This document shows, piece after piece, positions 49,663 to 58,896 of a stretch of 64,000 nt of DNA; position 1 is the first letter of the stretch, and each line of letters starts with the position of its first letter. A program made the position numbers and the translations under genes. The notes below the pieces were generated by a model that was not told the origin of the DNA, did no database searches, and saw only the letters and a list, made by a program, of their open reading frames with translations. This stretch comes from Aestuariispira ectoiniformans (GTDB lineage Bacteria; Pseudomonadota; Alphaproteobacteria; UBA8366; Aestuariispiraceae), in NCBI RefSeq assembly GCF_025136295.1, contig NZ_CP062788.1, forward strand, positions 310,001-374,000, read 5' to 3'.

Positions 49663-50268
49663 ATGGAATTTCTGTCGACATATAAAAATCTGGCCGATGC
49701 CCTTGCCGCCCTGCTGCATCCCCACGCGGAAGTGGTGGTCCATGACCTCGCGACACAACAGGTCGCCTATATGGCCAACCCGTTTTCCAATCGCGAGATC
49801 GGTGCGCCGTCGCTGATCGATGATGTGGATTTCACCAGCGGGCAAAGGGTCATCGGCCCTTATCAGAAGCTGAACTGGGACGGGCGGATGCTGAAGTCCA
49901 TCTCGGTCGTGATGCCGGACGCCAAAGGCGCGCCCGAGGCCCTGCTCTGCATCAACCTGGACCAGTCGGAAATGAGCCGCCTGCATCAGTTGCTGGGCAC
50001 AATGCTGGCCCTGCCCGAAACGCCGGACCCGGCGGTCGACGGCCTGTTCCGGGACGACTGGCATGAACGCATCAACCAGTCGATCCAGACATGGTTGCGC
50101 GACGAAGGGCTGACGCTGCAAAGCCTTGGCCGTGAGGACAAGCGCCGCCTCGTCACGCATCTGCAGGGCCAGGGCGCCTTCCAGGGCCAGGGCGCCGCCC
50201 CCTATGTGGCGCAATGTCTGGGGTTGGCCCGGGCGACGATTTACAAATACCTCAAGGAGGGGTCATGA
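49663..50268 (+). CDS. YheO/DauR-like regulator (PAS plus helix-turn-helix)
   Basis: The N-terminal PAS-like YheO domain (about 1-115: LADALAALLHPHAEVVVHDLATQQVAYMANPFSNR) and the C-terminal DauR-type helix-turn-helix (PYVAQCLGLARATIYKYL) make a 201-residue regulator like DauR of D-arginine use. Between them the repeated QGQGAF/QGQGAA is encoded by an in-frame 18-bp duplication. No Shine-Dalgarno precedes the ATG and a TATATAGACTATAT stretch stands immediately upstream, so the mRNA may be leaderless. Its stop overlaps the aminotransferase start as ATGA. Confidence 0.8.
   Translation: MEFLSTYKNLADALAALLHPHAEVVVHDLATQQVAYMANPFSNREIGAPSLIDDVDFTSGQRVIGPYQKLNWDGRMLKSISVVMPDAKGAPEALLCINLDQSEMSRLHQLLGTMLALPETPDPAVDGLFRDDWHERINQSIQTWLRDEGLTLQSLGREDKRRLVTHLQGQGAFQGQGAAPYVAQCLGLARATIYKYLKEGS
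50164..50199 (+). repeat. 18-bp tandem duplication inside the DauR-like gene
   Basis: The 15-base core CAGGGCCAGGGCGCC occurs at 50164-50178 and 50182-50196, an 18-bp period keeping the frame. It inserts six residues just before the DNA-binding helix region. Confidence 0.85.
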
Positions 50269-51395
50269 GAAATTTCGAACTGGAGACCTTCTTTTCCAAA
50301 TGGGAATTCGCCGCACGTTATCACATGACGGCCTCCGATTTCGAAAGCATGAGCATCGCCGAATTGCTGGCGCTGGCCAGCGACGAGGACCGTGAGGCCT
50401 TCGACAGCCTCCGCCTCAGCTATACCGAAACCTATGGCAATCCGGCCCTGCGCACGGAAATCGCCGGAACTTACGACACCGCCAATGCCGACGATATCCT
50501 CTGTTTCGCAGGCGCCGAGGAAGGTATCTATGTGGCGATGAAGGTGCTGCTGGAACCGGGCGATCATGTGATCACCGTCGTGCCCAATTATCAGGCCGCC
50601 GAGACCCTGCCTCTGGCAATCTGTGAGGTGACCGGCGTGCCGCTGGACCCCGACGATAACTGGAGCCTGGATATCGACGCCGTCCGTGCCGCCATCCGCC
50701 CCAATACCAAGCTGATTTCCATCAACTTTCCCAACAACCCGACCGGGGCGGTCTTAAGCCGCGACCGTTTCGATGCCCTGATCGATCTCTGTCGGGAACA
50801 CGGCATCTGGCTGTTCAGCGACGAGGTTTACCGACTGGTGGAACGCAGCGAAGACATCCGCCTGCCACAGGTGGCCGACGTCTACGAACGCGGGCTGTCG
50901 CTTAATGTGATGTCCAAGGCCTATGGCCTGCCGGGGCTGCGCATCGGCTGGATCGCCGCCAAGGACCGTGACCTGCTGCGCCAGATGGAATGCTACAAAC
51001 ATTACCTGTCCATCTGCAACAGCGCACCCAGCGAACATCTTTCCCTGATCGCCCTGCGCGCCCGCGATGTGATCCTGGAAAAGAACCGCAGGCTTGCCAA
51101 GGACAACGCAGACAAGCTGACCGCCTTTTTCAGTGAATTCCCGGAGCTTTTCGACTGGCAACGGCCCGACGGCGGCTGTGTCGGTTTCCCGAAATATATC
51201 GGGCCGGGCAGTACGGATGATTTCTGTGAGGATCTGGTGGAGAAAAGCGGCGTGCTGTTGCTGCCACCCAAAATCTATAAGTCGGACCTGCTGCCGGTCA
51301 CCTGGAACCGGTTCCGGGTCGGCTTCGGGCGCGCCAATATCGACGAGGGTCTCGCCGCCTGGCGCGCCTATCTGAAGTCCAATCAGATCAACTGA
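50265..51395 (+). CDS. Class I/II PLP-dependent aminotransferase
   Basis: A 376-residue fold-type I aminotransferase. The segments [50 protein letters not shown] and the PLP lysine in [17 protein letters not shown] are all present; the substrate is unknown. ATG 50265 follows AAGGAGG and overlaps the DauR-type stop by ATGA, so they are translated together. The last 13 bp overlap the opposing cysteine synthase-like gene. Confidence 0.9.
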
Positions 51396-52486
51396 TCCAA
51401 TTCCAAAGTCCAGGGGGCGAGGTCGAGGCCCTGTTCCCTGATCCAGGCGTCGGAGTAATAGCTGTCGAGGTAGCGTTCGCCGCTGTCGCAGATCATGGTA
51501 ACCACGCTGCCCTGGCGGTCATCGGCCTTCATCTCGCCCATCAGCTTCAGCGCCGCCTGCACATTGGTGCCGGTGGACCCGCCGCATTTGCGGCCCAGAA
51601 CCCGCTCCAGCCAGTGGATGGTGGCGATGCTGGCCGCGTCCGGCACGCGCATCATGCGGTCGATCACATGGGGTTGGAAGCTGGGTTCCACACGGGGTCG
51701 GCCTATCCCTTCGATGCGGGAGCCGGCAGTGGAGCGGATGGTGTCATCGCGGTCCCGGTAATAGTCGAAGAAGACCGAATTTTCCGGGTCCGCCACGCAA
51801 AGCCGGGTCTTGTCCAGCAGGCTCGGGTTATAGCGGATAAACCGCCCGATGGTGGCGGATGTGCCGCCGGTGCCCGCACTCATCACCACCCAGTCGGGGA
51901 TCGGGTTCGGCTCCTGCGCCATCTGGGCGAAGATGCTTTCGGCGATGTTGTTATTACCACGCCAGTCGGTTGCCCGTTCGGCATAGGTGAACTGGTCCAT
52001 GTAATGACCGTTCAGCCGTTCGGCCAGGGCCTCGGCCTCCGCATAGATCTGCGGGGCGGGCACCTTCACGCATTCGCCGCCATAGAATTCGATCTGGTCG
52101 ATTTTGCGCTGGGCGGTGCTTTCCGGCACGACGGAGATGAAGCGCAGGCCCAACAGCTTGGCGAAATAGGCCTCTGAAATGGCGGTACTACCGGAGGAGC
52201 ATTCCACGATCGGGGTTTTCGGCCCGATTTTGCCGTTGCATAGGCCATAGAGGAAAAGCGAGCGCGCCAGACGGTGTTTCAGGCTACCGGAGGGGTGGGT
52301 AGATTCATCCTTGAGGTAAAGCGTGATCCCGTCGAAGGCTGGCAGGTCCAGACGGATCAGATGGGTATCCGCAGAGCGGTTGAAATCCGCCTTGATCCGT
52401 TCAATGGCTTCGCAGACCCAGCCATGGTCGCAAGCCACACGTTCTTCATCCCCCGCCATCGCCGTCAGGCATTTCTTATCCGCCAT
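51383..52486 (-). CDS. PLP-dependent cysteine synthase-family enzyme (Cds1/desulfhydrase-like)
   Basis: A 367-residue fold-type II PLP enzyme. The PLP lysine is in [15 protein letters not shown], the substrate loop reads [20 protein letters not shown], and the phosphate-binding glycines are in [13 protein letters not shown]. It is longer than CysK and has the extra C-terminal portion of the Cds1-type cysteine synthase/desulfhydrase branch. It could make or break cysteine; the aminotransferase facing it makes an amino acid role likely. ATG 52486 has AGGA upstream; a longer frame was rejected. Confidence 0.85.
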
Positions 52487-52563
52487 GAGACATCCTGTTT
52501 TACAGTTAACCTGTGGACTATTTAGCCGGGAGATCACAGACCATCAAGCAGGACATCGTATGC

Positions 52564-52932
52564 TTACAATTCCCCATATCGCTTGATATCGACCAGCTTT
52601 GTGAGCTTTTTCGGCGCGATCAGACCATAGCTGCGCTGTACCACAATCTCTACCTCGCCCCAGTCGGGATCATTATCCAGCCGCATACCGATCCAGCCTT
52701 TCGGCCCCACATAGGGCGGACGGAAAAACCGCTCCGGGTCGCTTCCGACCAGGATTTCCTGCACGCCATGCGGCGCCTTGCACCATAGGGACAGCCGTCC
52801 GTCCCCGCTTTTGATCATGGCGAAAATCTTGCCGCGGACCCGGAAGGTCGGATCGCCCCAGGTTTCCTTTTCCACCGCCTCCGGCAGCGCCAGACAGAGT
52901 GTCCGAAAACGCTCGACAGTTTGATCCGTCAT
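52564..52932 (-). CDS. MmcQ/YjbR-family protein
   Basis: A 122-residue protein of the MmcQ/YjbR (CyaY-like fold) family: ALPEAVEKETWGDPTFRVRGKIFAMI, LSLWCKAPHG and PYVGPKGWIGMRLDN are diagnostic. Some members bind DNA; the cellular role is unknown. It follows the SDR gene by 17 bp on the same strand and is probably co-transcribed. Confidence 0.88.
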   Translation of the reverse strand: MTDQTVERFRTLCLALPEAVEKETWGDPTFRVRGKIFAMIKSGDGRLSLWCKAPHGVQEILVGSDPERFFRPPYVGPKGWIGMRLDNDPDWGEVEIVVQRSYGLIAPKKLTKLVDIKRYGEL

Positions 52933-52949: not shown

Positions 52950-53648
52950 TTAACGATACGGCGACCGCTGCGGCCGGACCGTCATTTCCGTAACGCAGGC
53001 ATTGCCAGGCAAGGTTACTGCCAGTGCGGCCATATCCGCAATATTATCCACATGGATCATTCTGTCCGGGTCCAGTGTTTCGGTATTGGAAAGCCTGGAA
53101 TAGACAAAGCCCGGGTGTATCAGCGTCACACGCACGCCGTCCTCCCGCACCTCCTCGAACAGACTTTTCGCGAAACCTTCAAGGCCATGCCGTCCGGCGC
53201 AATGGGCCGCCATTTTCGCGATACCCATTTTGGCATACATGCCACAGATATAGAGATAACCGCCCTGCGCCTGGCGAACGAATGGCAGCGTCAGCGCGGT
53301 CAGCCGCATCGGCGCATGCAGGATCGCATTCAAGGTGCGATCCCATTCGTCGAAACTTTCCGCCCCGATCGCCGTGGACCGCCCGCCGCCTGCGGAATAA
53401 ATGACCGCGTCCAGCGGCCCTTTCGAACCGGCCCATTCGGCAAGGTCCGCAACCTGATCCATATCGGTCAGTTCCGCCAGATGATAGTCGCCGTCACCGC
53501 CCTGTTTTCTGACCGTCTCCAGGGTTCGGGTTATTTCCTTTTCGTCCCGGCCGTGGGCCAGGATCGACCAGCCGTCTGCCGCCAGACGCGAGGCAATTGC
53601 ACGCCCGATGCTGCCACTGGCGCCAACCACCAATGCACGCTTTTCCAT
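52950..53648 (-). CDS. Short-chain dehydrogenase/reductase with altered catalytic residues
   Basis: A 232-residue SDR. The cofactor loop is ALVVGASGSIGRAIA and the NAG-like motif is IYSAGGG. At the catalytic position the family YxxxK reads H149-CAG-R153 (AAHCAGRHGLEGF), and the serine is replaced near YICGMY, so all three catalytic residues look changed. It may bind a nucleotide without acting as a classical dehydrogenase. It lies 50 bp after the AraC gene, on the same strand, and precedes yjbR. Confidence 0.85.
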   Translation of the reverse strand: MEKRALVVGASGSIGRAIASRLAADGWSILAHGRDEKEITRTLETVRKQGGDGDYHLAELTDMDQVADLAEWAGSKGPLDAVIYSAGGGRSTAIGAESFDEWDRTLNAILHAPMRLTALTLPFVRQAQGGYLYICGMYAKMGIAKMAAHCAGRHGLEGFAKSLFEEVREDGVRVTLIHPGFVYSRLSNTETLDPDRMIHVDNIADMAALAVTLPGNACVTEMTVRPQRSPYR

Positions 53649-53698: not shown

Positions 53699-54562
53699 TC
53701 ACATGCTGGCAGATTCCTGATGCAGCCAGTCACGCGGCGCGGTGCCAAAATGCCGTTCAAACACGCGGGAAAGCGCCGTTGTGCTTTTGTAGCCAACCTG
53801 CGGGGCCACCGCCTTCAGGCGTTCACCCGCCCGCAGCTTCTGTTTTGCAAGGGTCAGCCGGACCGACGTCAGGTAATTGCCCGGCGATACGCCAATCCGC
53901 ATCTTGAAGGCCGCCGCAAAATTTGCACGTGACATCCCTGCCGCATCGGCCAGGTTTTCGATACACCAGTCCGCCGCCGGATCTTCGTGAAGCGCCACCA
54001 GGGCACGGGCCAGTTTGGGGTCCGCGAGCCCGGCCAGCAGCCCACGGTCGGTCCGGTTCGACGCCACGCAATATCGCAATAGATAAAGAAGCAACAACTC
54101 CACCAGCGAATTCAAAACCGTCATACGGCCGAACCGTTCCGAGAAGGCCTCGTCGAACAGGCTTTTGGCCGCAGCATCCAACCCGGGAACATCAGCAAAG
54201 GGCAGGATAAGTTCGTCCGGCAGGCCAAGCAGCCTTGGATGGGCAACCATTGCGTCAAAGGAAAGCCGGGCACAGACCAGTTCCGCCCCCACACCCTCAC
54301 TGCACAAAATCCGGTGGGGGATGGGCTCTGCCAGCATCACCAGGCTGGGCTGGATGATTTCCACGGGGTCTTTGCCCTCTGTTACCAATGTCACCGGGCC
54401 GCGATGAACCAGATGCATATGGCCTTTGTTGTCATCGGCTGGAAAATCCGTGTGACGGCAAACCGATCCCGCAAAGAAAACGCCCGCATTCAACGGGCCG
54501 CGATCCAACAATGCGGAAAGCAGATCGGTTTCAGACGAATGGCGTGTTTCTTCAGACAACAA
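53699..54562 (-). CDS. AraC-family transcriptional regulator
   Basis: A 287-residue AraC protein with an N-terminal cupin-like sensor domain (HLVHRGPVTLVTEGKDPVEIIQPSLVML) and two C-terminal helix-turn-helix motifs (ENLADAAGMSRANFAAAFKMRIG and AVAPQVGYKSTTALSRVFERHFG). It starts at TTG (54562 or the next codon), with AGGGG upstream. It diverges from the YHS gene, 127 bp away, so either that gene, the bufferin operon or the SDR gene may be its target. Confidence 0.88.
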   Translation of the reverse strand: MLSEETRHSSETDLLSALLDRGPLNAGVFFAGSVCRHTDFPADDNKGHMHLVHRGPVTLVTEGKDPVEIIQPSLVMLAEPIPHRILCSEGVGAELVCARLSFDAMVAHPRLLGLPDELILPFADVPGLDAAAKSLFDEAFSERFGRMTVLNSLVELLLLYLLRYCVASNRTDRGLLAGLADPKLARALVALHEDPAADWCIENLADAAGMSRANFAAAFKMRIGVSPGNYLTSVRLTLAKQKLRAGERLKAVAPQVGYKSTTALSRVFERHFGTAPRDWLHQESASM

Positions 54563-54689: not shown

Positions 54690-55214
54690 ATGTCCATCGC
54701 ATCGAAAATCCTGCGGTCCGCCCTGCTGGCCAGTGCACTCGTCGTCACCGGGGCCGCCAGCCTGCCAACCCTGGCCCAGGCTGCGGAAGAGGTAAACCTC
54801 ACCAACGGGATGGCGGTTCACGGCTATGACGTCGTCGCCTATTTCACCGAAGGCAAGCCGGTTGAAGGCAAAGGCTCCTACACAGCCAGCTACAACGGCG
54901 CGAGCTACCAGTTCTCCAGTGCGAAAAACCGTGACATGTTCATGGCCGACCCGGCCCGATACGCGCCGCAATATGGCGGTTTCTGTGCCTTCGGCACGGC
55001 CATGGGCCGCAAGTTTGACGGCGACCCCCAGGCCTGGACCATCAAGGATGGCAAACTCTATCTGAACCTGAACAAGAAGGTGCAGGCCCGTTGGAGCAAG
55101 GACATCCCCGGCTTTGTCAAAGGGGCTGATCATAACTGGTCGATCATCGAAACCGTCGCCGACGCCAAACTGGAAAACAGCCCGCCGTCGGGCCTGACCC
55201 AGGGCGCACAGTAA
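54690..55214 (+). CDS. Secreted YHS-domain protein
   Basis: A 174-residue protein with a Sec signal (MSIASKILRSALLASALVV..., cut near AQA-AEE). The YHS domain is seen in GMAVHGYDVVAYFTEGKPVEG, YQFSSAKNRDMFMADPARYAPQYGGFCAFG. YHS domains are linked to metal handling, and in some genomes sit with copper or bufferin genes. AAGGAG lies about 10 bases before the ATG. It is 170 bp upstream of the bufferin precursor gene on the same strand. Confidence 0.85.
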   Translation: MSIASKILRSALLASALVVTGAASLPTLAQAAEEVNLTNGMAVHGYDVVAYFTEGKPVEGKGSYTASYNGASYQFSSAKNRDMFMADPARYAPQYGGFCAFGTAMGRKFDGDPQAWTIKDGKLYLNLNKKVQARWSKDIPGFVKGADHNWSIIETVADAKLENSPPSGLTQGAQ

Positions 55215-55232
55215 GCCTCTCATTCCACCTGC

Positions 55233-55264
55233 GTTATGGGGTGTGGGCACTCACGCCCCATAAC
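55233..55264. repeat. Perfect inverted repeat after the YHS gene
   Basis: GTTATGGGG (55233-55241) and CCCCATAAC (55256-55264) are perfectly complementary. There is no T-tract, so it is an mRNA stabiliser or weak terminator rather than a classical one. Confidence 0.6.
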
Positions 55265-55323
55265 ATGTCGGTGAGAACCGCGTCATGTGGGTTACAGGTC
55301 GAAAAACCAGCAATATATGTGAT

Positions 55324-55355
55324 TTGACCGGCCCGGAAAAACAGACGCCGGTCAA
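55324..55355. promoter_or_regulatory. Perfect inverted repeat in the bufA leader
   Basis: TTGACCGGC (55324-55332) and GCCGGTCAA (55347-55355) are perfectly complementary with a 14-nt spacer. It ends 30 bp before the bufA start, so it could be an operator or a hairpin in the leader RNA. Confidence 0.6.
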
Positions 55356-55385
55356 CGTTGAGCAACCAGAAGGACGAGAGTGACC

Positions 55386-55682
55386 ATGAAGACTACAATG
55401 ACCCTGGCCGCCGCCCTCGCCGCGGCTGTTACCGTCGCCGCCACGGATACCGCCGTCGCCGCGGGCAAGGAAAAATGCTATGGCGTTGCCAAGGCCGGCC
55501 AGAATGACTGTGCCGCGGGGCCGGGCACGACCTGTGCCGGTACGTCGGTAATCGACTATCAGGGCAACGCCTGGAAACTGGTTCCGGCGGGCACCTGTGA
55601 AAGCATCACAATGAGTACCGCTGACGGTCGTGACGTCTCCGGCAGCCTGACGCCGCTGAAACGCGACCTGCCGAAATCCTAA
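55386..55682 (+). CDS. bufA: Bufferin precursor peptide (DUF2282, BufA1-like)
   Basis: A 98-residue precursor with a Sec signal ([19 protein letters not shown]..., cut near AVAA). The mature region holds four cysteines at residues 31, 42, 50 and 71 and the DUF2282 signature [26 protein letters not shown]...[15 protein letters not shown]. In the Caulobacter bufferin, central cysteines are reported to be converted to thiooxazoles that bind copper. GTG 55380 would add two residues. It is followed by bufB (63 bp), bufC and bufD. Confidence 0.88.
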
Positions 55683-55745
55683 CGGAAAGTCTCCGACAGG
55701 CCGCCGGAAATCAAACCGACGGCATCCTGTCGGCGCCACTCAATC

Positions 55746-56651
55746 ATGTCCGAAGCCAAACCCCGAACAGCTTCCTTTCCCCCCGCGTCGCCGCGCATGG
55801 TCCCCGCCATGCCGGCACGCAGCGGTGTGGGGTTCAAACCACAACATCTGTCGGCGATCCTGGATGATCCGGGTCGGCTGTCCTGGTTTGAGGTCCATGC
55901 GGAAAACTATATGGTTGAAGGCGGCCCGCGCCTGCGGCAACTGGAACGCCTGCGGGAGAGTTACCCGCTGTCCCTGCATGGGGTCGGGTTATCGCTGGGC
56001 GGTGTGGAGCCGCTGGATACAGACCACCTGACGGCCCTGCGGCAACTGGTTGACCGGTTCGAACCGGCCCTGGTGTCGGAACATGTGGCCTGGTCGTCTC
56101 ACGGCGGCAACTATTTCGCCGACCTGCTGCCCATGCCGATGAACCGCACATCACTGGACCGGCTGATAAACAGCGTGGATCAGGTTCAGGAGGCACTCAA
56201 CCGCCAAATCCTGATCGAAAACCCCAGTTCCTATATGGACCTGCCGGAAAGTAATCTCGTTGAAATCGAGCTTCTGGCCGAAGTCGCAAGGCGAAGCGGC
56301 TGTGGCCTGCTGGTCGATGTGAATAATATCTATGTCAGCGCCCACAACCTGCGGACCAGCACGGAGGCCTATATCGATGCCATTCCTGCGGAGCTGGTGG
56401 GTGAAATCCATCTGGCCGGTCACGACCGCAGCCAGACCAGCGACGGCCCGGTCCTGATCGACAGCCATTCGCGGCCCGTCGATAGTGCCGTCTGGACGCT
56501 TTATGACCGGCTGATCACCCGGATCGGCGCGCGCCCGACCCTGATTGAATGGGACAATGACCTGCCGGACTGGCCCGTGCTTGCCGGTGAGGCCACCCGC
56601 GCGGATGCGCTGTTAAATGCCGTTACAGGCGAGGTGGAGCCGGTCGCATGA
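55746..56651 (+). CDS. bufB: DUF692 / MNIO multinuclear iron enzyme, bufferin maturase
   Basis: A 301-residue TIM-barrel enzyme of the multinuclear non-heme iron oxidative family that modifies cysteines in peptide precursors. The fold and metal residues are seen in SWFEVHAENYMV, LSLHGVGLSLGG, LVSEHVAWSSHGG, ILIENPSSYMDLP, LLVDVNNIYVSAHN, EIHLAGH and LIEWDNDLP. It overlaps bufC as ATGA (56648-56651). Confidence 0.93.
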   Translation: MSEAKPRTASFPPASPRMVPAMPARSGVGFKPQHLSAILDDPGRLSWFEVHAENYMVEGGPRLRQLERLRESYPLSLHGVGLSLGGVEPLDTDHLTALRQLVDRFEPALVSEHVAWSSHGGNYFADLLPMPMNRTSLDRLINSVDQVQEALNRQILIENPSSYMDLPESNLVEIELLAEVARRSGCGLLVDVNNIYVSAHNLRTSTEAYIDAIPAELVGEIHLAGHDRSQTSDGPVLIDSHSRPVDSAVWTLYDRLITRIGARPTLIEWDNDLPDWPVLAGEATRADALLNAVTGEVEPVA

Positions 56652-57400
56652 GCCATGGAACCGACTTCTACGACGATTTTGCCAATGCCCTTCGAAACCG
56701 GGACCCGCAATCCCTTGCCGATTACAATGCGGAACGTTTTTCGATTTACCGCAACAATGTCTATCGCGCCCATATCGACGCCCTGGCCGATGCCTATCCG
56801 GTCATCGCCCGGCTGGTAGGACAGGAATTCTTCGAGGCAATGGCCCGCGAGTACTACCTTGCTGGCCCCAAAGGCGATATATCCCTTGCCTTGTATGGCG
56901 ATGGTCTCGCGGCATTCATCGAGGATTTCGCCCCCGCCCGGGGCCTGCCCTATCTGCCTGATATGGCGCGGCTGGAACGGGCGTGGCTGGAGGCGCTTCA
57001 TGCCGCCGATGCAGACCCGATAAGGCCTGGAAAACTGTCAGCAGGCAGCATCGATCTACCGTCGCTGCGGTTCCGGATGCACCCCACATGCCGCCTTGTG
57101 TCGTCAGCCTATCCGATTGTCTCTCTCTGGCATGCCAACCAACCGGACGCCTCCCCGGCAGGTGACATTCAGGCGGTTGCGGAAACCGCCCTGATCGTCC
57201 GGCCCGGGTGGGAGGTTGCCCTGCACCTTCTCCAGCCACCGGCGGCCATCTTCACCCGTCGCCTGATGGCGGGCAGGAGCGTGGCCAAAGCCTTTGACGC
57301 CGCAACCGGAATTTCCGCCGATTTCGATATCACGCAAACCTTCGGACTGCTTCTCACAGCCGGGGTCTTCACCGCCATCGCAACAGGAGACGAACAGTGA
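56648..57400 (+). CDS. bufC: DUF2063 partner protein of the bufferin maturase
   Basis: A 250-residue protein. The N-terminal DUF2063 domain (about 1-95) reads YNAERFSIYRNNVYRAHIDALADAYPVIARLVGQEFFEAMAREYY. This family is the obligate partner of MNIO enzymes (HvfC/BufC) and is thought to bring the precursor peptide to the enzyme. The C-terminal half ends FGLLLTAGVFTAIA. It overlaps bufB and bufD by four bases each. Confidence 0.9.
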   Translation: MSHGTDFYDDFANALRNRDPQSLADYNAERFSIYRNNVYRAHIDALADAYPVIARLVGQEFFEAMAREYYLAGPKGDISLALYGDGLAAFIEDFAPARGLPYLPDMARLERAWLEALHAADADPIRPGKLSAGSIDLPSLRFRMHPTCRLVSSAYPIVSLWHANQPDASPAGDIQAVAETALIVRPGWEVALHLLQPPAAIFTRRLMAGRSVAKAFDAATGISADFDITQTFGLLLTAGVFTAIATGDEQ

Positions 57401-57984
57401 CAACGGATACCACGACCCAACAGACGGGGCAGACCGTCAAATCCGGCATCATGACACGATATCGCCACCTGGTCCGGACGGTCGAGGCCACCGGGGACGA
57501 CTGGCTGATCGGGTTTGCCGCACGGCTTGGCTTTGCCGCCCTGCTGCTGCCTTACTATTTCAACAGCGCGCTCACCAAATTCGATTCCGGATTTCTCGGG
57601 CTGTTCCCGCCGTCGGCAGGGGCCTTTGCACAGATCCTGCCAAGCATCGCCGAACAATACAGCTATGATGTGGCAGCCATTCCCTTCTTTCCATGGCATC
57701 TTGTCGTCATCGCCGGAAGCCTCACGGAAATCCTGCTCCCCCTTCTGATCGTCGCCGGGCTGTTCTCGCGCCTGTCGGCCCTGGGCATGATCGGTTTCGT
57801 CATCGTGCAGACCATCGTCGATGTGGTCTTCCATGGGGTCGGCCCGGGCGTCCTGTTCAACGGTCTGCCCACGGAACTGATCGACCAGCGCCTGCTTTGG
57901 GTGTTCCTTTTGCTGATAATTGCCACGAAAGGGGCCGGGAGGCTCTCTCTCGATCATATACTGGCGCGCCAGATCAACCTTTGA
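57397..57984 (+). CDS. bufD: DoxX-family membrane protein of the bufferin operon
   Basis: A 195-residue membrane protein with four hydrophobic helices. DoxX features are LIGFAARLGFAALLLPYYFNSALTKF, SLTEILLPLLIVAGLFSRLSALGM and QRLLWVFLLLIIATKGAG. DoxX proteins close most buf/hvf operons; a redox or membrane role has been proposed. Its ATG overlaps the bufC stop. Confidence 0.9.
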   Translation: MTTDTTTQQTGQTVKSGIMTRYRHLVRTVEATGDDWLIGFAARLGFAALLLPYYFNSALTKFDSGFLGLFPPSAGAFAQILPSIAEQYSYDVAAIPFFPWHLVVIAGSLTEILLPLLIVAGLFSRLSALGMIGFVIVQTIVDVVFHGVGPGVLFNGLPTELIDQRLLWVFLLLIIATKGAGRLSLDHILARQINL

Positions 57985-58131
57985 GGGTGTATGTTCTCCC
58001 GATTTCCTGCGGTCTTGGGCGATTTTTTTGAAACATTATGAATTACGGTAACTAGCTACCTCAACAAATGGTTGTTCCTCCCCTATATTGCGCCCCGATC
58101 AAAGATAGGGATTGGGGCTGAGGCCACCACG

Positions 58132-58896
58132 GTGCCATATTTTTCCAAGCCAGCGACACGATTGAAAATATTCCTGCTCTGCACGTTTGCCTTTGCGCAG
58201 GCGGCGGCGGCTTTTGCCATGACCGGCCGCGCCCGGGCCGAGACCTATGTAGTGGGTATCGAGAATATCGAATATATGCCCCATTACAGCGCCGTGGGCG
58301 AAGAGGTCTATGGCTATATCCGGGACCTGCTGGACGCCTTTGCCAAGGATGAAGGCATCAATTTCCGCTATCAGGCCTATCCCATCATCCGGTTGTCCCG
58401 CAATCTTGCCACCGGCATCGTCGATTTCAAATATCCGGCCAATCCCGGCTGGATCGAACATAGCGGGGCGACCCTGATCTACAGCGACCCGGTCGCGGAA
58501 TTCACCGACGGGCTCAGCATCAAACCGGAGAACCGGGGAAAGCCGATCAAAAGCATCGCCCTCGTCCGGGGTTTCACACCGCAGGCCTTCCAGAAGCAGA
58601 TTGAAAACGGTGAAATCCACGTCAGCGAACATGACTCGCTGCGCGATGTGGTCCAGCATGTGCTGCGCGGGCGTTCCGACGCGGTCTATGCGAACAAGAG
58701 TGTCGTCAAATATTTCATGGCGAACTTCCTGCACAAGCCCGATGCCCTGATCTTCGATGATCAGGAGAACGTCACCCGGGACAGCTATCGACTGGGAACG
58801 ATCCAGCACAGGAAGATCATCGAGAAACTCAATCAGTGGCTCGCGAAAAACAGCGGGCGCATCGGCAAGCTCAAGAAAAGCTACGGCCTAGAATAG
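58132..58896 (+). CDS. Orphan periplasmic solute-binding protein (SBP_bac_3-like)
   Basis: A 254-residue secreted protein with a signal peptide (LKIFLLCTFAFAQAAAAFAMTG..., cut near ARA-ETY). The binding fold reads ETYVVGIENIEYMPHYSAVGEEVYGYIRDLLDAF, RYQAYPIIRLSRNLATGIVDFKYPA and DAVYANKSVVKYFMAN. No permease or ATPase is near. The start is unsure: GTG 58132 with GAGG upstream is preferred; a TTG at 58072 lies further up. It overlaps the opposing SGNH gene by 9 bp. Confidence 0.72.
   Translation: MPYFSKPATRLKIFLLCTFAFAQAAAAFAMTGRARAETYVVGIENIEYMPHYSAVGEEVYGYIRDLLDAFAKDEGINFRYQAYPIIRLSRNLATGIVDFKYPANPGWIEHSGATLIYSDPVAEFTDGLSIKPENRGKPIKSIALVRGFTPQAFQKQIENGEIHVSEHDSLRDVVQHVLRGRSDAVYANKSVVKYFMANFLHKPDALIFDDQENVTRDSYRLGTIQHRKIIEKLNQWLAKNSGRIGKLKKSYGLE

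Follow-up and report, generated by a model that had tools for sequence, protein, structure and literature searches.

A Buf1-type bufferin operon of Aestuariispira ectoiniformans preceded by a YHS-domain gene and a divergent RclR-like AraC gene

Where does the bufferin operon of Aestuariispira ectoiniformans begin, and which regulator controls it? The question is raised by a 64,000-nucleotide stretch of this genome (contig NZ_CP062788.1, positions 310,001 to 374,000 of the forward strand), hereafter called the window, in which an earlier note made from the letters alone had recognised a complete operon bufA-B-C-D from position 55324 onwards. The four buf genes are where they were said to be, and two genes on their left had been omitted, namely yhs, which encodes a YHS-domain protein on the same strand, and a divergent gene for an AraC-type regulator (Table 1). 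We interpret the locus as a Buf1-type bufferin (captophorin) operon in which yhs comes first and the divergent RclR-like AraC is the probable regulator, and we consider this explanation likely as a whole. This variant, with yhs in the lead and AraC on the flank, is recurrent, and we found no description of it in the literature searched: no report listed joined YHS domains with DUF2282, DUF692, DUF2063 or bufferins, and neither PMC12452194 nor PMC13097082 uses the term YHS in its main text; it might appear in Table S1 of PMC12452194.

We assign the four genes to Buf1 because their family matches, the score of BufB above an equivalog cut-off, its conserved ligand-type residues, the fold of BufC, the canonical cysteines of the precursor and the A-B-C-D order all point the same way. 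Profile searches, which the earlier note had suggested for DUF2282, MNIO and DUF2063, found all three families, with no miss at either BufA or BufB. Specifically, BufA matched PF10048 (DUF2282; E 1.6e-25, 89.3 bits, cut-off 22.4), BufB matched the Pfam profile PF05114 of the DUF692 enzymes (E 7e-101) and exceeded the cut-off of the NCBIfam equivalog model NF050167 MNIO_BufB (377 versus 310 bits), BufC matched the Pfam profile PF09836 of the claimed DUF2063 partner (E 2.4e-20), and BufD, the DoxX protein placed last in the operon, passed PF07681 marginally (25.7 bits, cut-off 23.6). Models of related systems gave values under their cut-offs, with BufD at 22.4 bits for NF050144 HvfX (cut-off 80), BufC at 36 bits for HvfC (cut-off 142), and the BufA2 equivalog model NF050166, which would mark Buf2 membership, at 18.4 bits (cut-off 60). 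The order bufA-B-C plus DoxX is that of Buf1 bufferins, and the Caulobacter arrangement that had been invoked is indeed the same, CC3254-CC3257 reading DUF2282-DUF692-DUF2063-DoxX (PMC3511200). The ATGA overlaps described for B, C and D hold for bufB/bufC; bufC and bufD overlap by GTGA, with bufD starting on GTG. The genome, 4.36 Mb in one contig, contains a single DUF2282 gene and a single MNIO gene. As judged from these sequences, the set is a genuine Buf1 bufferin operon and an ordinary new member of a known family.

Table 1 Coordinates of the features discussed, given as positions in the window.
Feature	Position	Strand	Remarks
Cupin_6/AraC-type regulator, RclR-like	53699..54562	-	PF12852 86 bits, PF12833 69 bits; C35, C97; TTG start uncertain
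Direct repeat AGACGA-N15-AGACAA, candidate AraC operator	54533..54559	+	21-bp period; overlaps 5' end of called AraC frame
yhs, YHS-domain protein of the YHS_seleno_dom family, exported as judged by eye	54690..55214	+	PF04945 38.8 bits; NF041384 162 bits, cut-off 70
Hairpin between yhs and bufA	55233..55264		two 13-nt arms, without T run; possible attenuator or processing site
bufA	55386..55682	+	98-aa bufferin precursor (DUF2282); GTG at 55380 as alternative start
bufB	55746..56651	+	MNIO (DUF692) bufferin maturase
bufC	56648..57400	+	DUF2063 (PME-type 1) partner, RRE-like domain at C-terminus
bufD	57397..57984	+	DoxX-family membrane protein, 195 aa, GTG start, zero cysteines

The residues on which a bufferin is expected to depend are in place. 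Cysteines 31, 42, 50 and 71 of BufA stand exactly where they had been reported, spaced C31-10-C42-7-C50-20-C71, and the suspicion that this spacing might be deviant can be dropped, as C-10-C-7-C-20-C is the majority form in 113 of 126 distinct DUF2282 precursors (137 rows before 8 duplicate loci and identical sequences were removed), next to 10-6-20 in 7 and 10-8-20 in 6. By eye, the N-terminus of BufA looks like a signal peptide, with MKTT, a hydrophobic stretch and AVAA ahead of GKEKC. BufB retains H78, H113, E158, N159, D191, N194, H222, D239, H241, E268 and D270, each of them conserved in no fewer than 120 of the 121 rows of the alignment (window row included; 120/120 at columns where one row was gapped), and particular residues among these we take to be iron ligands. 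A sequence search with BufB recovers the solved MNIO structures 3BWW, TglH and MbnB. For BufC, a sequence search against the PDB gave no relative up to E 1, and fold comparison alone gave matches: the AlphaFold model of its 250 residues (pLDDT 91.9) best matched TglI (8hci_A, E 6e-7) and NGO1945 (3dee, E 1.5e-3). Going by this model, BufC is a DUF2063 domain joined to the RRE-type domain of MNIO partner proteins, of which the PME-type 1 class is described in PMC12452194.

The gene yhs lies on the same strand as bufA, 171 nt upstream. Its product has one cysteine only, C99, in the motif YGGFCA, and no selenocysteine, and its export was judged from a signal-peptide-like start. A PDB sequence search with it gave no relative below E 0.06, and structure prediction from six sequences reached a mean pLDDT of only 50.8. 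Gene neighbourhoods indicate that YHS is associated with the bufferin operon. Among 387 genomes of the class Alphaproteobacteria, DUF2282 occurs in 142, YHS in 118 and both in 62, and in at least 10 of these 62 a YHS gene stands within 1 kb upstream of bufA on the same strand, against about 0.017 expected; these ten, from six families, are a lower bound consisting of the window and nine cases confirmed on fetched DNA. In the window's own family, DUF2282 occurs in 3 of 13 other genomes, two of which have YHS in front of it. The association also extends beyond the class: in a phylum-wide sample of 30 YHS loci, yhs is followed on its own strand by bufA in five, counting the window, either directly (window, L171, L179) or with a thioredoxin gene in between (L165, L168), and L165, L168 and L171 come from outside Alphaproteobacteria.

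On the trees of YHS and BufB, the linkage label changes repeatedly. In the YHS tree (39 rows, after 9 duplicates and fragments were removed from 48; L064, with YHS downstream, scored as linked), one side holds 16 bufferin-linked rows together with 4 unlinked ones and the opposite side 19 unlinked rows, a split of weak support (80/42), and the linkage label needs 5 changes versus about 12.6 in shuffles. In the BufB tree (119 rows, after short or extra rows were removed from 121), linkage takes 8 changes by parsimony versus 13.4 in shuffles, and at least 3 of them are forced by well-supported branches. The association of YHS with bufA has therefore been gained or lost on several occasions.

The gene content of partial loci ties YHS to BufA and not to the enzymes BufB and BufC. 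L122 (genome G085) has a CMD/AhpD-like gene, yhs, bufA and doxX, and L185 (G654) has yhs, thioredoxin, bufA and doxX, neither with bufB or bufC alongside; L182 (G431) carries the full run of yhs, thioredoxin, bufA, bufB, DUF2063 and doxX. Since YHS and DoxX remain with bufA where bufB and bufC are not alongside, YHS is a candidate functional partner of BufA. At L122, the bufferin may be modified in trans, given the DUF2282-MNIO pair that G085 carries on a separate contig, or may possibly be used unmodified. A further redox hint lies in the thioredoxin gene between yhs and bufA at L182:4805-5152 and L185:5019-5360, both from outside the class.

The AraC gene is divergent from yhs, with 127 nt between them. 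With its product as query in 16 genomes, the two best non-self matches, at 225 bits in G324 and 172 bits in G085, both lay at YHS loci, and the next was a paralogue in the window's own genome (129 bits). In the phylum sample, this AraC type stands divergent beside YHS in 8 of the 30 loci, the window included, and all eight carry both cysteines; at one of them, L179, a CMD gene lies between the two. AraC, YHS and bufA are also found together outside Alphaproteobacteria. The first cysteine (C35 in the window) is present in 10/10 YHS-associated AraC proteins versus 0/12 Cupin_6/AraC paralogues, and the second (C97) in 10/10 versus 8/12. The ten include L122, with its intervening CMD gene, and L186, whose AraC gene, in the same orientation as YHS and about 1.5 kb upstream, is separated from it by two genes. 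Among the papers listed in the literature searched, none linked YHS domains with RclR or hypochlorite, and none of those listed for bufferins together with hypochlorite or RclR was seen to contain this arrangement.

In front of yhs, the direct repeat of Table 1 is our candidate operator, and because it overlaps the first codons of the called AraC frame, the start codon of that gene is uncertain. A repeat with the same 21-bp spacing precedes YHS at L138, L182 and L185 in strict form and at L186 in loose form, and a strict copy precedes the CMD-YHS pair of L122. Of the ten AraC-associated regions, counting the window, five carry the repeat in strict form and six when the loose form is admitted; it occurs in 0 of 38 other YHS upstream regions, two of which are fragment rows of L151.

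The strongest rival holds that an ordinary bufferin operon starts at bufA with its own promoter, and that YHS and AraC form a separate stress unit which is a neighbour by position only. Several observations weigh against our explanation, and some of them speak for this rival. The 171-nt gap between yhs and bufA holds a strong hairpin (fold of 55205-55300: -38.1 kcal/mol, z -2.4), so the two genes may not share a transcript. AraC-YHS pairs occur with no bufferin genes in view (L138, L183, L184, L187, L188). Among the named relatives, which are the best 80 of 138 and are incomplete upstream at some loci, YHS is next upstream on the same strand in only four (L006, L007, L011, L012) and downstream in one (L064), leaving 76 of 80 buf1 loci with no YHS in front and 75 of 80 with none in view. 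On the other side stand the recurrent yhs-bufA adjacency in six alphaproteobacterial families and beyond the class, the several changes of the linkage label on the BufB tree, the persistence of YHS, bufA and doxX together where bufB and bufC are not alongside, and the absence of a sigma-F-like promoter at bufA here. On this balance we find the separate unit rather improbable.

The remaining adverse points concern the regulator and its site. The AraC protein scores 87.4 bits with the RclR equivalog model NF040475, far under the cut-off of 400. A regulator of this type is in view at only 2 of the 15 YHS-led buf loci (the window and L122), the other 13 having none. Among the 30 loci kept from a class-wide regulator search, both cysteines are present by alignment in five, of which the window, G324 and G085 lie at YHS, whereas both YHS and the direct repeat are missing alongside the genes of G163 and G344; in G344 the contig offers only 376 bases ahead of the AraC reading frame, so that the upstream side is cut. 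YHS is close by in 11 of these 30 loci, and eight of the 11 have second-cysteine-only regulators, seven of the eight head-to-tail, so that the pairing of AraC with YHS extends beyond bufferin loci. The regulator could serve the adjacent SDR gene (52950-53648, minus strand). As for the repeat, the pattern was chosen after inspecting the sequences and is not rare genome-wide (15 matches versus 23 for a reversed control), for which reasons only the conserved position supports it, and a chance estimate from single-base shuffles overstates its significance. In E. coli, the loosened repeat has no match in the rclA-rclR gap even when one mismatch is allowed.

Some further observations belong to these subjects. 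The SDR gene lies 50 nt downstream of AraC on the same strand, and no relative of it was seen in L122, L138 or L182-L188. In G163 (L215/L242), a buf1 operon is about 9 kb from the two-cysteine AraC; G344 corresponds to L214/L244. A Cupin_6/AraC gene lacking the first cysteine is followed head-to-tail by YHS in L221, L223, L225, L226, L228, L229 and L232, all from other Alphaproteobacteria. We rejected the idea that the two-cysteine AraC is exclusive to YHS loci, to which a text pattern had assigned 3/30, as the alignment adds G163 and G344. We likewise rejected the direct repeat as a stand-alone site predictor, its counts in the genome and at E. coli rcl being at or below control; in the E. 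coli comparison there are 8 matches with one mismatch versus 8.9 expected, which is chance level.

A second rival makes copper or another metal the signal, read by an ECF sigma factor or a metal regulator as in Caulobacter, with AraC uninvolved. It has precedents: the buf operons of Caulobacter (PMC3511200) and a DUF692-DUF2063 operon of Sinorhizobium (PMC6180224) are under ECF sigma factors. We searched for a sigma-F-like motif, GTAAC-N16-19-CGAA, derived from the Caulobacter consensus (PMC3511200). It lies upstream of 39 of 111 bufA genes with no YHS in front, versus 1 of 14 YHS-led ones (Fisher p 0.036, from related sequences; duplicates and upstream stretches under 150 bases removed), and it was found before neither bufA nor yhs in the window. 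The anti-sigma factor NrsF was not found in this genome; elsewhere it exceeds its cut-off in 2 of 11 YHS-led genomes (weakly in G009, beside the buf operon in G361) versus 9 of 23 others, and its presence does not clearly separate the YHS-led from the other buf1 genomes. Control of this operon by sigma-F and NrsF is thus unsupported, there being no NrsF in the genome and no motif at bufA, and the broader metal-response explanation seems to us unlikely. At four YHS-led buf loci that lack AraC (L118, L119, L007, L012), GTGT and then CGTGA[AT]TTG can be made out by eye before yhs, and these stretches are perhaps another promoter type.

A third rival, that the precursor stays unmodified or has its cysteines modified otherwise and acts as a plain thiol or redox peptide, can point to DUF2282 genes with no adjoining MNIO gene (L122, L185) and to the unmodified uses that Antoine et al. 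allow (PMC12452194), but it is very improbable here, with bufB and bufC intact and adjacent, BufB above the bufferin-maturase cut-off and its ligand-type residues retained.

Returning to the YHS-led operon under AraC, we propose the following mechanism, in which the thiooxazole chemistry, export and copper binding of BufA are carried over from published Caulobacter work on a copper-binding bufferin, where the central cysteines of Buf1 are modified and the outer pair is disulphide-bonded (PMC12452194). BufC would recognise the BufA precursor and present it to the iron enzyme BufB, which would oxidise the central C42 and C50 to thiooxazoles. Each of these oxidations would lower the mass by about 4 Da. 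An absorbance near 305 nm has been reported for bufferins and other thiooxazole peptides (PMC12452194, PMC13097082). BufA would be exported by Sec, its outer C31 and C71 would form a disulphide, and the mature peptide would chelate copper in the periplasm. BufD would act as an auxiliary membrane protein, and YHS as a periplasmic single-cysteine partner. AraC, with its two conserved cysteines, would be a thiol switch that acts through the 21-bp direct repeat and responds to cysteine oxidation or metal binding, with yhs as its minimum target and perhaps the entire series of genes under it. We infer that bufA is among its targets, with a thiol oxidant or copper as the signal.

A bolder proposal, which we put forward tentatively and regard as possible rather than probable, is that YHS-led bufferin operons are a distinct recurrent type in which, at loci of the present kind, an RclR-like two-cysteine AraC activator senses a thiol oxidant and switches on both the YHS thiol protein and the copper-binding peptide, YHS being the partner of BufA. 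If true, periplasmic copper would be removed at the very time at which it would act jointly with the oxidant, YHS would serve in redox or copper hand-over with BufA, and the oxidant would be hypochlorous or hypothiocyanous acid, or oxidising copper. The question of a copper-oxidant connection is suggested by two published systems: the doxX/MNIO operon of Haemophilus is induced by hypochlorite through RpoE2 (PMC7907618), and the RclR regulon of E. coli includes the copper(II) reductase RclA (PMC7527725, PMC7464077). By analogy, a similar connection may hold at the present locus.

Outside the module, the genes to its left are a class I/II aminotransferase (50214-51395, plus strand), a PALP-family pyridoxal-phosphate (PLP) enzyme (51383-52537, minus) and a YjbR-family gene (52564-52932, minus). 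To its right, 126 nt past bufD, a frame of about 261 aa with an uncertain start (58111-58896, plus) has no Pfam or NCBIfam match, and by eye its product has the look of an exported solute-binding-type protein. Among the bufD loci L003-L082, DoxX scores against the 195-aa BufD of the window are bimodal, mostly above 100 or about 20-40 bits, which suggests two DoxX types among buf1 loci.

Thiooxazole metallophores, bufferins included, form a very large class of ribosomally synthesized and post-translationally modified peptides (RiPPs) with more than 20,000 examples (PMC13097082). The class was named only recently, and the core operon of the window is one more typical member of it. The useful part is the upstream pair, which offers a candidate partner (YHS, with its single conserved cysteine), a candidate thiol-switch regulator and a candidate operator. 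In this regard, the locus provides a way to ask whether copper buffering by bufferins belongs to an oxidant response.

Among known systems, the closest counterpart is bufA1-D1 of Caulobacter vibrioides (CC3254-CC3257), with the same four families in the same order and four precursor cysteines as in this founding member (PMC12452194); the window differs in that bufA is preceded by a gene for an exported YHS protein and, divergent from that, one for AraC, and in that no NrsF and no sigma-F-like promoter were found. The EGKCG-type captophorins (Haemophilus oxazolin, fontiphorin, gonophorin), in which a 5-thiooxazole is installed and copper is bound (PMC13097082), likewise combine an MNIO with a PME-type 1 partner; unlike them, the window has another precursor type, a BufC under the HvfC cut-off and another proposed regulator. 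The YHS protein resembles YHS_seleno_dom (NF041384) in its family match, its signal-peptide-like start and its single cysteine in YGG-x-CA, and stands apart in falling on the largely bufferin-linked side of the weakly supported split in the YHS tree. With the RclR regulons (E. coli rclABC, Pseudomonas rclX), the locus shares an AraC gene divergent from its target, as in E. coli rclR/rclA, and a second cysteine, C97, that aligns with RclR C89; the CMD gene between AraC and YHS at L122 also recalls RclX, an AhpD-like protein modelled on a CMD-family member (PMC7950407). Unlike the hypochlorite sensor RclR of E. coli itself, to which it is 26% identical, the AraC of the window does not reach the equivalog cut-off and has its first cysteine three columns off, RclR C21 lying ahead of C35 and RclR having no cysteine at the C35 column (RclR residues counted by hand on the fetched E. 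coli record), and it sits beside YHS and bufferin genes instead of rclABC.

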